From Acidobacteriota bacterium (GTDB lineage Bacteria > Acidobacteriota > Terriglobia > Bryobacterales > Bryobacteraceae): a stretch of 49,062 nucleotides of DNA. Under the pieces are notes generated by a model. The model ran no database searches. It saw nothing but the letters and a program-made list of their open reading frames with translations, and was not told the DNA's origin. Shown one piece after another: positions 1-3,345 of the stretch. Every line of letters begins with the position of its first letter. The stretch's first letter is position 1. A program made the translations under genes and the position numbers. The stretch lies in contig JANXXI010000124.1 in assembly GCA_025350695.1 (NCBI GenBank), positions 1-49,062 on the forward strand, in the 5' to 3' direction.

Positions 1-1
1 C

Positions 2-133
2 ATGGCAGAAGCTATCGTCAAACTCCGCTCTCTGTACCTCAGCGGCGACTTCGAAAACTACTGGTCTTTCCACGTCTCTCAAGAACAACTTCGCCTATAT
101 CCTCAAGGCCGCTGGACCGTCGTCGCAAAATAG
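2..133 (+). CDS. C-terminal end of a probable transposase (partial, runs off the left edge)
   Basis: An open frame enters from the left edge and ends at TAG 131-133, giving 43 visible residues. It ends in a Tyr-Trp rich stretch (ENYWSFHVSQEQLRLYP) followed by a short basic tail. From memory, this kind of ending is found in ISKra4-type transposases of environmental bacteria; I cannot confirm the family. An in-frame ATG lies at 2-4, but it is most likely an internal Met. A position beside an AT-richer accessory cassette fits a mobile-element remnant or a complete element outside the window. No terminal inverted repeat could be recognised just downstream. Confidence 0.45.
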   Translation: MAEAIVKLRSLYLSGDFENYWSFHVSQEQLRLYPQGRWTVVAK

Positions 134-266
134 ACACACCCCTCCTGAAAAGAAATTTCAAAAATATCTTGACTTTGTTCAAAGCGATGGTAGCCTTCCA
201 CATGAGACGAACCCCCATACTTACAATCTTGTTGGTAACAGCCGCAATAACAGCCTCGCGCTTCTA

Positions 267-274
267 CCCCCCCC
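267..274. repeat. C8 mononucleotide tract, probable frameshift site
   Basis: Eight consecutive C bases sit where two reading frames meet. Frame 1 starts at ATG 202 with a hydrophobic signal-like N-terminus and stops at 292-294. Frame 2 is open from 251 to the end of the cysteine-rich gene at 688. Removing one C joins them into one protein. This could be slippage, phase variation or a sequencing error. Confidence 0.5.
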
Positions 275-412
275 TCGTGGCAAAGGCCCGATAAGCACCA
301 TCGGATATTCGCTGATGATGGGACGAGCCTAACCTATTTTTTTGAGAGACTTACAGCCAACGATCCACGCTTCGGCCAACTTTCAAAAACTCAGAAATCC
401 TGGATTCGAAAC

Positions 413-688
413 ATGGTGTCACAATTGTCTTCAGTTTCATTGTTCAGATTTCTTGCCCTAACACCTACCTCGGTGTACGCGCAATATGGTTGCGGCGGCG
501 GATACAATACCGACATCACCGGATCATGCGGTATTTATTGCGGTGGCACTTATAGTGATACGGGATCCAGTCCCTCTTCTGATAGATGTGTCGGTAGCCG
601 CGCTTCTGGGCAGTCCTGTCAAAGTGACGATGAAGGCTGCAGCGGAAACTTTGCGTTTGAAACTTGTCCCATTCCATTTTGCAGCTAA
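413..688 (+). CDS. small secreted protein with eight cysteines (probably the 3' part of a longer gene starting at 202)
   Basis: The product is 91 residues. A hydrophobic N-terminus ends near AYAQ-like residues 20-24, and a Gly/Ser/Cys-rich remainder carries eight cysteines in about 65 residues, an even number suited to four disulfides. There is no Shine-Dalgarno sequence before ATG 413, and the frame is open upstream without a start codon to 251. A better N-terminus (MRRTPILTILLVTAAITA) begins at 202 in another frame and would join this one if the C8 tract at 267-274 lost one base, giving roughly 160 residues. The gene sits 17 bases before a propeller-like gene and shortly before a CxxC thioredoxin, so export and disulfide formation are likely themes. 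I do not recognise the family. Confidence 0.5.
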   Translation: MVSQLSSVSLFRFLALTPTSVYAQYGCGGGYNTDITGSCGIYCGGTYSDTGSSPSSDRCVGSRASGQSCQSDDEGCSGNFAFETCPIPFCS

Positions 689-705
689 ATTAAGGAGCCA
701 ACATT

Positions 706-1692
706 ATGACTAAACTAATGATTTCCCCACTTATTAGTACGATTCTTACAGTATATTGTTCACCGCTTCAAGCTGCTGAGAAAAAAGATATTGTCGTTGG
801 TGAGTCGGCCCAACTGCCCATTCATGCTCTTACACTTGAATTAAAACCGAAGTGGACAAAGGGTGCACTTGTCAACTTTGAAAAAAACGACACTGCCTCG
901 CCAGTTCTTCATTGGGTTGACGCCAGCCACCAGGAGTCTACTCTTGTATTCACTCTTGATGGGGCGGCAAGCATTCATATTGGTGATGCCGCTTTCGGCT
1001 CTGCGACCCTGGCCTTCACAGGCTTCGCTGCGGATCCTGATCAACGTGGTGCTGCCTTTATCGCATTTGTCTCAACGGTTTCAAAAGAGGTAACCACCGT
1101 ACGTTTGTCAAATTTCAGACCAGAGTTGATTACTGTTGCACAGGATGGAACTGTTTGGATAAAAGGTTGGCAGCCTGGTGCCAACGGTAAGGGCCTGGAT
1201 CTTACTGCTATGGTTCTCCGCCAATATGACCGAACAGGAAAAATGCTGAATGGTTTCGTTTCTCAAAAAGACGCACTAGCCCTAATGGAACGGTATCAAC
1301 TTACTGGTGTTGCTGGGCATCTAACATCCTCATTAACAAGAATCGGTTGGCACGAGTTTAGAAACGGGCCGTACTTTGAGATATCTCTCGATACGCTGAA
1401 ACTTTCCCAGTATCCCGCAGTCCCAGTGTCGGCCAAAGGTGAGTTTATAAGCGGATTGGCTATTACTGAGAATGGGACAGTTGTTGCAAACACATCAGTC
1501 TGGTGTTGTTCGGACCTGCCAAAAGGGGCATACCTATATGTTCTGGACCGCAGCAATGGAGTATGGGAACGGATTGATCTCTACAAAGGCAAATTTTCTC
1601 CGCAGCTATTGGGGAGACTTTTAGGTGCCGAAGGCGACAAATTGGTTATGGCTAATCGTGCTGGAAATGCTAACTTTGTCTCGCTAAAGTAA
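706..1692 (+). CDS. secreted protein, possibly beta-propeller-like, function unknown
   Basis: This is a 328-residue protein with a signal peptide (about residues 1-23, ending SPLQAAE). AAGGAG lies nine bases before ATG 706 and supports the start. The body is beta-rich with repeated short strands and turn motifs (ITVAQDGTVWIKGW, GLAITENGTVVANT, YLYVLDRSNGVWERIDLY), which resembles degenerate propeller blades. A CC pair occurs near residue 268. No catalytic motif is visible. It lies between the cysteine-rich peptide and the thioredoxin-like gene with gaps of 17 and 6 bases, so the three are probably co-transcribed. Codon use is AT-richer than in the genes after 3.3 kb, which suggests acquisition. 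Confidence 0.7.
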   Translation: MTKLMISPLISTILTVYCSPLQAAEKKDIVVGESAQLPIHALTLELKPKWTKGALVNFEKNDTASPVLHWVDASHQESTLVFTLDGAASIHIGDAAFGSATLAFTGFAADPDQRGAAFIAFVSTVSKEVTTVRLSNFRPELITVAQDGTVWIKGWQPGANGKGLDLTAMVLRQYDRTGKMLNGFVSQKDALALMERYQLTGVAGHLTSSLTRIGWHEFRNGPYFEISLDTLKLSQYPAVPVSAKGEFISGLAITENGTVVANTSVWCCSDLPKGAYLYVLDRSNGVWERIDLYKGKFSPQLLGRLLGAEGDKLVMANRAGNANFVSLK

Positions 1693-1698
1693 CCCTTT

Positions 1699-2271
1699 AT
1701 GCGGGCACGATTCTACCTTCCATTATTGGTATTGTTTGTGGCTTCCGCCGCGATAAATTTTAGGCAGGCCAGAAGAATTGGGGAATTAGAGGCCGCAACC
1801 GACTCTCAATTTAGGAACGGTCTACCCGAGGGTATGTTGCTTCCAGATCTTGATGCGCAGGACTTATCTGGGCATCAAGTGTCGGTTCGCTTCGGATTGC
1901 CGTCGACAAAACCACATGTCATCTATGTATTTCGGCCTTCCTGTGTATGGTGTCAACGTAACAAAAAACGGGTCAGTCTTTTAGCAGATCGACTTACTGG
2001 GAAGTACGATGTGATTGGATTGTCATTGGATCGCGAAGGGTTGGAGGAGTTTGTCGAAGGGCAATCTTCTTCAATCCGAGTTTTAACTGAGGTTTCAGAG
2101 GCTACTCGAAGTTCATACCGATTGAAAACAACACCAATGACAATAGTTGTATCTGCAAATGGTAAAGTCATGGCGAGTTGGATTGGAGCTTACGACCGAA
2201 TTCTCCTACCCGTGGTGCAACGGTTTTTCTCAATCAACCTCGAATCTGGCGAGGACTTTCCTGGAATTTGA
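1699..2271 (+). CDS. membrane-anchored TlpA/redoxin-like thioredoxin-fold protein
   Basis: The product has 190 residues. Residues 5-20 form one N-terminal membrane segment that is probably uncleaved, so the domain faces the periplasm. The fold signature is clear: a beta strand VIYVFRP, then the active-site CxxC (Cys82-Val-Trp-Cys85), and a Thr-cis-Pro loop at residues 145-146 (LKTTPMTIVV). Such proteins reduce or oxidise disulfides of exported proteins, as TlpA, ResA and MauD do. The neighbouring exported protein with eight cysteines is an obvious possible substrate; that link is inference from position. The start is ATG six bases after the preceding stop. No electron donor such as a DsbD/CcdA-like protein is present in the window. 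Confidence 0.82.
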   Translation: MRARFYLPLLVLFVASAAINFRQARRIGELEAATDSQFRNGLPEGMLLPDLDAQDLSGHQVSVRFGLPSTKPHVIYVFRPSCVWCQRNKKRVSLLADRLTGKYDVIGLSLDREGLEEFVEGQSSSIRVLTEVSEATRSSYRLKTTPMTIVVSANGKVMASWIGAYDRILLPVVQRFFSINLESGEDFPGI

Positions 2272-2723
2272 CTGACCTAATTTCTTGCGATTTCATAGGC
2301 AGCCACCGTTCTTCTGGCTACCAAGCTCCAATCGTGTTTTTTAGCAAAGTTGAGACAAGGTTCCTTGTTCCTGCCACCTCCAACAAACTGACCTCGGCTA
2401 GAGCATCCCTTAACGTCGTATGGCTTGAACCGCCGAACAAAAGGCCCGTGCCTGTCGGTATAAATTCGCTCTTAGGATGAGCTCTCCAACTTGCGCTAGG
2501 AACTAAGTCATTTGGTTCCTAACTAACCTCCGAATCGGCGGAACATTGATCATCACCGGCTATTTTCTTGCCGAATCCCATAAGGTTTTCAATCACTTAC
2601 CTTTTCCCAGAGCCCGACCCCCTTGCATGCCCTTGCCAAAATGGATTCGAGAATCAAAGGTGGCTCCTCTCAGGAAGAGCCAACCATTTCATTTCGAAGA
2701 GGAGTAAAACCGCCAACGCCCAA
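2272..2723. other. gene-free stretch with a small inverted repeat
   Basis: No convincing gene was found. A 100-codon open frame crosses it but lacks protein-like composition and overlaps the thioredoxin gene. A perfect 6-bp inverted repeat (AGGAAC at 2498-2503 and GTTCCT at 2515-2520) could form a weak hairpin. The start of the decayed SEC-C gene lies to the right. Confidence 0.4.
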
Positions 2724-3135
2724 TTATTTACTGGCTGGAACATCGAAAAAGCAAATCGGATCGAAGCCGCACTTGCCGTCGATGGCGTCGACCCTCTTCT
2801 CAGAAGCCAACGAAAAAACACTCAACCGCATCGCGACTTACCACATGCGAGCCGAACGTACTTTCCACAAATGCCTCAAGGAAAAACAGTCTTACCAAGC
2901 CGCACATCCGCTCGATGAACCGGTTTTGCGGAACGAACCCAAACCGGAAATGAAGAACGAAGCCAAATTAAGTCAACCAACGATAACTGAACATAAATTC
3001 AGCAGGAATCCCTACGTCCGTCCAGCTCCGAAAGTCGGCCGCAATGAACTCTGCCCATGTAATTCCGGCCGCAAATACAAAAATTGCTCCTTGCGGAACG
3101 AACCCAATTCCGTTAGGGAGGCTTTGGCCGCTTGA
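2724..3135 (+). pseudogene. decayed SEC-C tailed protein, first copy
   Basis: The conserved part begins in one frame (WNIEKANRIEAALAVDGVDP, from about 2736) and continues after a one-base slip near 2800 in another frame (SEANEKTLNRIATYHMRAER). It ends with a SEC-C zinc motif (GRNELCPCNSGRKYKNC) and stops at 3133-3135. The same order of blocks is found in the copy at 31034-31601, where the normal N-terminus with NATKHGFFSKHAVLLNEDD is still visible; here that N-terminus is gone. The second-last zinc ligand pair is also altered, NCS where CC is usual. The family is common in Acidobacteriota and its function is unknown. SEC-C motifs bind zinc. Confidence 0.65.
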
Positions 3136-3345
3136 TATAGAAGCGGTGCTAGAACACTTATTGGGATAACTCCTCCAACTCCAAGCGTTCAACTCGCGCA
3201 ATGTTCGTCAGGATAGTAGAGCTTTGGCCTAGCCCCGACGGAAATTGGGGGATTGTTCGGAGTCCCAACAACGGACCTGGTTCGGAAGAATCCCCCCATT
3301 TCGCATCGGGCTAGTCAAGTGGATGGATATAATGGCAGCTTAGTT

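Follow-up and report, generated by a model that had tools for sequence, protein, structure and literature searches.

A conserved acidobacterial gene cassette joining a Cys-rich secreted peptide precursor, a predicted propeller protein and, at many loci, a thiol protein

A trio of genes encoding a Cys-rich peptide precursor, an exported propeller-like protein and a membrane-anchored thioredoxin is real and conserved, recurs in related bacteria and fits none of the named systems tested. The precursor, propeller and thiol protein very probably constitute one functional unit, and we give a probability of roughly 0.55 to the full model, in which the cassette would serve specifically to fold an exported disulfide-rich peptide that has the propeller as its partner. 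Gene association gives good support to the disulfide part of this model; what the propeller does and what the peptide targets are inferred. The cassette was identified on a 49,062-nucleotide stretch of acidobacterial DNA (hereafter the window), which is an entire contig (C273) of a genome of 7.19 Mb in 391 contigs, and its features are as follows:

2-133, + strand: ISKra4-family transposase, C-terminal end only, at the edge of the contig; it flanks the cassette and is not part of it
202-294, + strand: N-terminal signal or anchor part of the precursor, in another frame than the rest; relatives have it in frame with the pro-region
251-688, + strand: open frame with the pro-region (GTSLTYFFERL) and Cys-rich core, matched by the precursor profile at E 7e-16 (the window is itself a seed) and by whole-genome matches
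413-688, + strand: 91-aa ORF that has eight Cys and a secretion-signal-like N-terminus ending in VYAQ
479-685, + strand: predicted mature 8-Cys core, past the V-x-A site, from alignments with relatives
706-1692, + strand: exported propeller of 328 aa, closest to six-bladed NHL domains in its AlphaFold model
1699-2271, + strand: membrane-anchored TlpA/ResA-like thioredoxin of 190 aa, with CVWC at 1942-1953 and TP at 2131-2136

The three closely packed same-strand genes of the initial annotation correspond to ORFs 413-688, 706-1692 and 1699-2271, and the first of these does encode a peptide with eight Cys and an N-terminus resembling a secretion signal. Placing the start of that gene at position 202 proved unreadable, as the frame of the ATG at 202 stops at 294. 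The frame that holds the pro-region and the 8-Cys core is open from 251 to 685, and its first start codon is the one at 413. Relatives carry both parts in a single frame, which leaves three readings of the window copy: a frameshift, an assembly error or translation from the ATG at 413. With its frame split, this copy may be broken or mis-assembled. Split or truncated precursors are also found at four other loci (L103, L152, L085 and L105).

Across relatives, the precursor consists of an N-terminal hydrophobic segment, a pro-region, a V-x-A cleavage-like site and a variable Cys-rich core. The pro-region features a GxxLxxxFxG motif and a Cys that is present in 83% of the aligned sequences with a letter at that position, and the Ala of the V-x-A site is invariant in 30 aligned sequences. 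The core has nine Cys columns (residues 104, 109, 121, 125, 154, 157, 159, 164 and 169 of the L100 precursor), each with Cys in 82-100% of the sequences that are not gapped at that position. The window core has eight Cys. A comparison of 24 precursors with NCBIfam and Pfam yielded single chance-level matches only, and a core profile matched none of the solved-structure sequences at E 10. The precursor was poorly predicted (pLDDT 62), so the model provides no usable fold or disulfide pattern, and Foldseek returned just two matches to it, with E above 1. The precursors of two loci (L030:3283-4785 and L033:4402-5874) reach about 490 aa and contain 30-31 Cys; their long C-terminal domain (SPIVLD..., ALDRNGNG) matches nothing in Pfam.

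A precursor profile constructed from 24 seeds was searched against 257 whole genomes of the order irrespective of neighbouring genes, which gave 34 matches in 28 genomes, with two or three matches in each of five genomes. Every one of the 34 has a propeller match less than 500 nt away, with 327 the largest gap, and in 33 cases the two share a strand. The 11 matches that were not seeds are likewise all beside a propeller, and eight of these are in loci that had not been fetched earlier. A set of 71 propeller loci was also compiled from the protein and profile searches for propellers, best matches first, of which 39 have a precursor; this proportion is not a frequency, and 8 of the 10 loci of one fetched batch had been picked for a precursor already found. 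The 39 loci include weak or broken precursors (L032, L085, L103, L105, L106 and L152), along with L035, which was added by hand, and loci are described as lacking a precursor when none was recognised by the profile. Flanks cut short by contig ends can hide neighbours. Precursor and propeller genes share a strand in 38 of these 39 loci and the precursor comes first in 34; the most frequent layouts are precursor-propeller (18 loci), precursor-propeller-thioredoxin (seven loci, window included) and propeller(-propeller)-precursor-DsbA (five loci). Genomes with the three genes side by side and homologues of the peptide, the two findings on which the initial annotation had staked its proposal, were both obtained. 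Over 21 loci, precursor and propeller identities correlate (Mantel r 0.26, with 10 of 5000 permutations as high), a weak signal that common descent could produce.

A propeller profile matched eight of 396 genomes spread over the phylum, including the window's own genome. Among the seven propellers from outside the order, a Cys-rich gene is directly upstream of two (L217, which has the pro-region motif at E 2.5e-4, and L221, by eye), and there is no recognisable Cys-rich gene upstream of the other five. A precursor-profile search of 396 genomes sampled over the phylum matched only the window's own genome; because the propeller route found L217 and L221 in such a sample, that search is not sensitive. 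In each phylum-wide search of this kind, only some 5 to 12 first-look candidates were scored in a genome. The full trio is encoded in a Terriglobia MAG from the same class and another family (L035, identical to L169). A cultured strain, Acidobacteria bacterium KBS 96 (KB906767.1), also carries the cassette. It belongs to subdivision 3 (PMC5900883); passages of that article name the strain and gave no hit for cysteine, propeller, thioredoxin or bacteriocin. Across the literature searched, which covers a minority of subscription papers, no title or abstract opening names the gene set. In KBS 96, a gene with a weak DUF5819 match and an HTTM/SdpB-like gene directly follow the cassette (L031:7102-8828).

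The third protein had been described as a CxxC thioredoxin with a cis-Pro loop, which agrees with its CVWC motif and with the TP pair found where the cis-Pro is expected. C82, W84, C85, T145 and P146 are invariant in 10 thioredoxin sequences, window included, and an N-terminal hydrophobic or membrane stretch is visible by eye. Matches to Redoxin (20.1 bits, cut-off 26.6), TrbB and ResA (12.7 bits, cut-off 170) are weak and all below cut-off. Thioredoxins of this type are found at 11 of the 39 precursor and propeller loci, where L029 has only a fragment without CxxC, and an all-against-all comparison of neighbours revealed six loci with a DsbA-like protein, each of which has a precursor. Two of these six were checked against Pfam and matched DSBA and Thioredoxin_4 above cut-off. 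Altogether, a thiol protein of either kind is encoded at 16 of the 39 precursor loci (one of which has both) versus none of the 32 loci without a recognised precursor (Fisher p 1.9e-5); at 23 of the 39, neither thiol protein is in the fetched stretch.

A thioredoxin profile seeded from three precursor loci (window, L031 and L035) gave 22 matches in 21 of the 257 genomes; for 10 of these matches, a propeller match lies no further than 1.5 kb away. The 12 other matches were combined with two named loci, L168 and L170, to give 14 loci away from propellers. A short, signal-bearing, Cys-rich ORF is encoded on the same strand within 2 kb of the thioredoxin gene at seven of these 14 loci, or six of 13 distinct loci given that L170 and L200 hold the same sequence. 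Nine of the 14 contain a passing ORF, but those of L195 (over 2 kb away) and L203 (not near on the same strand) were not counted. The same strict screen found no such ORF in 574 kb of other fetched loci; it is tuned to short ORFs and misses the longer precursor family of the window. The presence of peptides at seven of 14 loci indicates that this thioredoxin family tends to accompany secreted Cys-rich peptides generally, rather than just those with a propeller. The earlier proposal that the thioredoxin would shape the disulfides of the peptide is thus supported by gene association (16/39 versus 0/32, and 7/14 loci).

Short secreted Cys-rich peptides encoded beside a thioredoxin of this family and without a propeller include L198:1787-2041, L199:3447-3725, L204:3198-3488, L194:3646-3936, L168:1173-1451 and L200:1491-1733. 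The L204 peptide weakly matches a plant defensin-like family (E 0.0038, below cut-off), and a further Cys-rich peptide at L201 was seen by eye and fails the screen. Near the thioredoxin or peptide, two ORFs (L194:2157-2984 and L195:5322-6212) feature a 'FEVASIKP'-like stretch, which we take to be that of the soil-associated TIGR03435 family.

The middle protein had been called propeller-like, and structure prediction agrees, with a confident propeller model from AlphaFold (62 sequences; mean pLDDT 89.6, pTM 0.87). Foldseek alone places Kelch propellers at the top, and the best matches in a second look with VIA are NHL-type, including Mei-P26 (7nyq_A; Z 18.2, 4.1 Å over 257 residues) and PknD (1rwi_A; Z 17.4), where NHL domains score Z 16-18. 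From these matches, the fold is predicted to be an NHL-type six-bladed propeller. A protein search matched 17 of 101 genomes, and a profile of 17 propellers matched 96 of the 257 genomes from the order (E 1e-6), own genome included in both cases. The conserved positions D147, W151, G154, G178, E225 and G307 look structural, not catalytic. Seventeen propellers matched no Pfam propeller family at E 0.1 and gave single chance-level matches only, a comparison that included PF17170, presumably the number of the Bacteroidetes 6-bladed propeller family. The 328-aa window protein itself has no Pfam or NCBIfam match, and the propeller profile gave six weak, unrelated matches to solved-structure sequences (best E 0.092). 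A second, partial propeller relative is encoded elsewhere in the same genome, without a recognised precursor (G000:C256:1717-2358, locus L114; E 3.2e-18).

The window tract was said to be AT-richer than the rest and to follow a transposase end, and both descriptions are accurate. G+C content is 47.0% for 202-2271 versus 55.0% for 3341-49062, and an equally low value occurs in six of 470 sliding windows of the same length (windows overlapping 202-2271 included). The 43-codon transposase end shares about 60% identity over 33 residues with the C-terminal ends of ISKra4-family transposases, and a second, identical copy is present elsewhere in the genome. Across the 33 loci whose precursor scored below E 1e-5 and whose flanks span 2 kb or more, cassette G+C is below that of the flanks in 32, with a mean difference of 4.9 points, and G001, the one other genome of the same genus, has no matches to any of the three genes. 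These sequence patterns fit an accessory cassette that may often be lost or gained. The suggested mobility of the cassette is partly supported by its low G+C and its patchy, sometimes multicopy occurrence, but the ISKra4 end lies at the edge of the contig, and assemblies tend to stop at repeats in any case. No plasmid DNA matched window positions 1-3300, and none of 73 stretches of viral contigs that fit the search pattern encodes a relative of the thioredoxin. Beyond the cassette, ORF 2623-3135 features a C-terminal SEC-C metal-binding motif (E 7e-7).

In the proposed folding system, the N-terminal signal or anchor would take the precursor into the cell envelope, where the membrane-anchored TlpA-like thioredoxin would form or correct the core disulfides, a role that a DsbA-like protein may take over at some sister loci. 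The exported NHL-type propeller would bind the pro-region or core as a dedicated folding and carrier partner, and cleavage at V-x-A would then free the core. A propeller is always beside the precursor and has no catalytic-looking residues, which suggests a binding partner; strict gene pairing and the predicted fold are the basis for proposing that it binds the peptide. Our leading guess is that the released peptide acts outward, on neighbours or as a signal. A more tentative and rather doubtful extension is that Acidobacteriota possess, across the phylum, an unnamed class of disulfide-rich exported peptides. Every such peptide would have its own propeller to recognise the pro-region, and many loci would add a thiol enzyme of their own that folds the peptide. 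This class could be a peptide arsenal or a signalling family with built-in chaperone-receptors, in which the conserved pro-region Cys might exchange disulfides with the thioredoxin and so help folding from within the precursor. Bacteria of this phylum are common in soil, and their secreted products are little known. If the cassette is a folding system, this gene set would open a new family of exported peptides to genetic study and might also serve to produce disulfide-rich proteins. Its presence in the cultured strain KBS 96 makes it testable.

An antibacterial peptide whose core is released to act on neighbours and whose propeller is an immunity or neutralising protein, binding the core to protect the producer, would account for the variable core, the patchy AT-rich loci and the presence of up to three copies per genome, and the KBS 96 cassette is followed by an HTTM-domain protein with a weak SdpB-family match (51 bits, cut-off 178). 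We nevertheless consider this unlikely: tblastn found an SdpB-like gene at only one place among 224 fetched loci (with short flanks), core-bearing precursors and propellers diverge similarly (mean identities of 24% and 25% over 21 loci), and neither PADLOC nor PHROGs matched any of the three window proteins or the one precursor compared. Distinctly less probable is a cell-surface or matrix protein in which the Cys-rich part forms a rigid module and the propeller and thiol proteins are assembly factors. The 490-aa, Cys-rich precursors of L030 and L033 with their long C-terminal domain would suit such a role, but the majority of precursors are short, have a cleavage-like site ahead of the core and show no recognisable anchor after it (by eye).

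A redox enzyme resembling methylamine dehydrogenase, with a Cys-rich light chain, a propeller heavy chain and a MauD-like thioredoxin for maturation, would follow the same gene logic as MauA, MauB and MauD, yet it is very improbable. PF02975 is over cut-off in none of 28 genomes and has no listed sub-threshold match at a precursor, no Trp column reaches 50% in the alignment of 30 precursors, and the closest folds among the matches listed are six-bladed NHL domains. MauA membership was rejected on the PF02975 and Trp results. Finally, unrelated neighbours beside a chance open frame, a notion that the frame-split window copy might invite, are in our view ruled out by family conservation, gene order, the 34/34 linkage (11/11 for non-seeds) and the loci outside the order.

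The thioredoxin resembles TlpA/ResA proteins in its N-terminal hydrophobic anchor, CxxC motif, TP pair and weak Redoxin and ResA matches, but the cassette subfamily falls under every curated cut-off, features CxWC and adjoins Cys-rich peptides. The propeller shares its predicted fold with the NHL six-bladed propellers of Mei-P26, Brat and the PknD sensor domain, but has 7-14% identity to them among the matches listed and, across 17 members, matches no Pfam propeller family at E 0.1. The methylamine dehydrogenase cluster also combines a Cys-rich small protein, a propeller and a thioredoxin. The TTQ cofactor of its light chain needs two tryptophans and MauB is a seven-bladed propeller, whereas the cassette has neither a MauA match nor a conserved Trp pair and its propeller appears NHL-like rather than MauB-like; MauB-type propellers are not named among the best 50 Foldseek or VIA rows, which excludes nothing.

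Sublancin and SDP-type disulfide-bonded bacteriocins similarly have dedicated thiol or SdpB-like maturation genes beside the peptide gene, but are smaller peptides of Gram-positive bacteria and are not known to come with a propeller. The window has no SdpB-family match, and the KBS 96 locus has the single weak one. The NVEALA peptides of Bacteroidetes, which have propeller and TlpA neighbours, are also small exported peptides with a conserved motif ahead of the core. Membership of this family (PF14055) was rejected, with none of 24 precursors matching at E 0.1 and none found in the window's own genome, in a search whose Bacteroides control was positive. An analogy only is offered by animal Dkk1-LRP6: the window peptide has nothing beyond a chance-level Dickkopf_N match in Pfam and NCBIfam (E 0.14), and LRP6-Dkk1, in which a Cys-rich ligand sits on a six-bladed propeller, appears in the structural list at Z 16.1.
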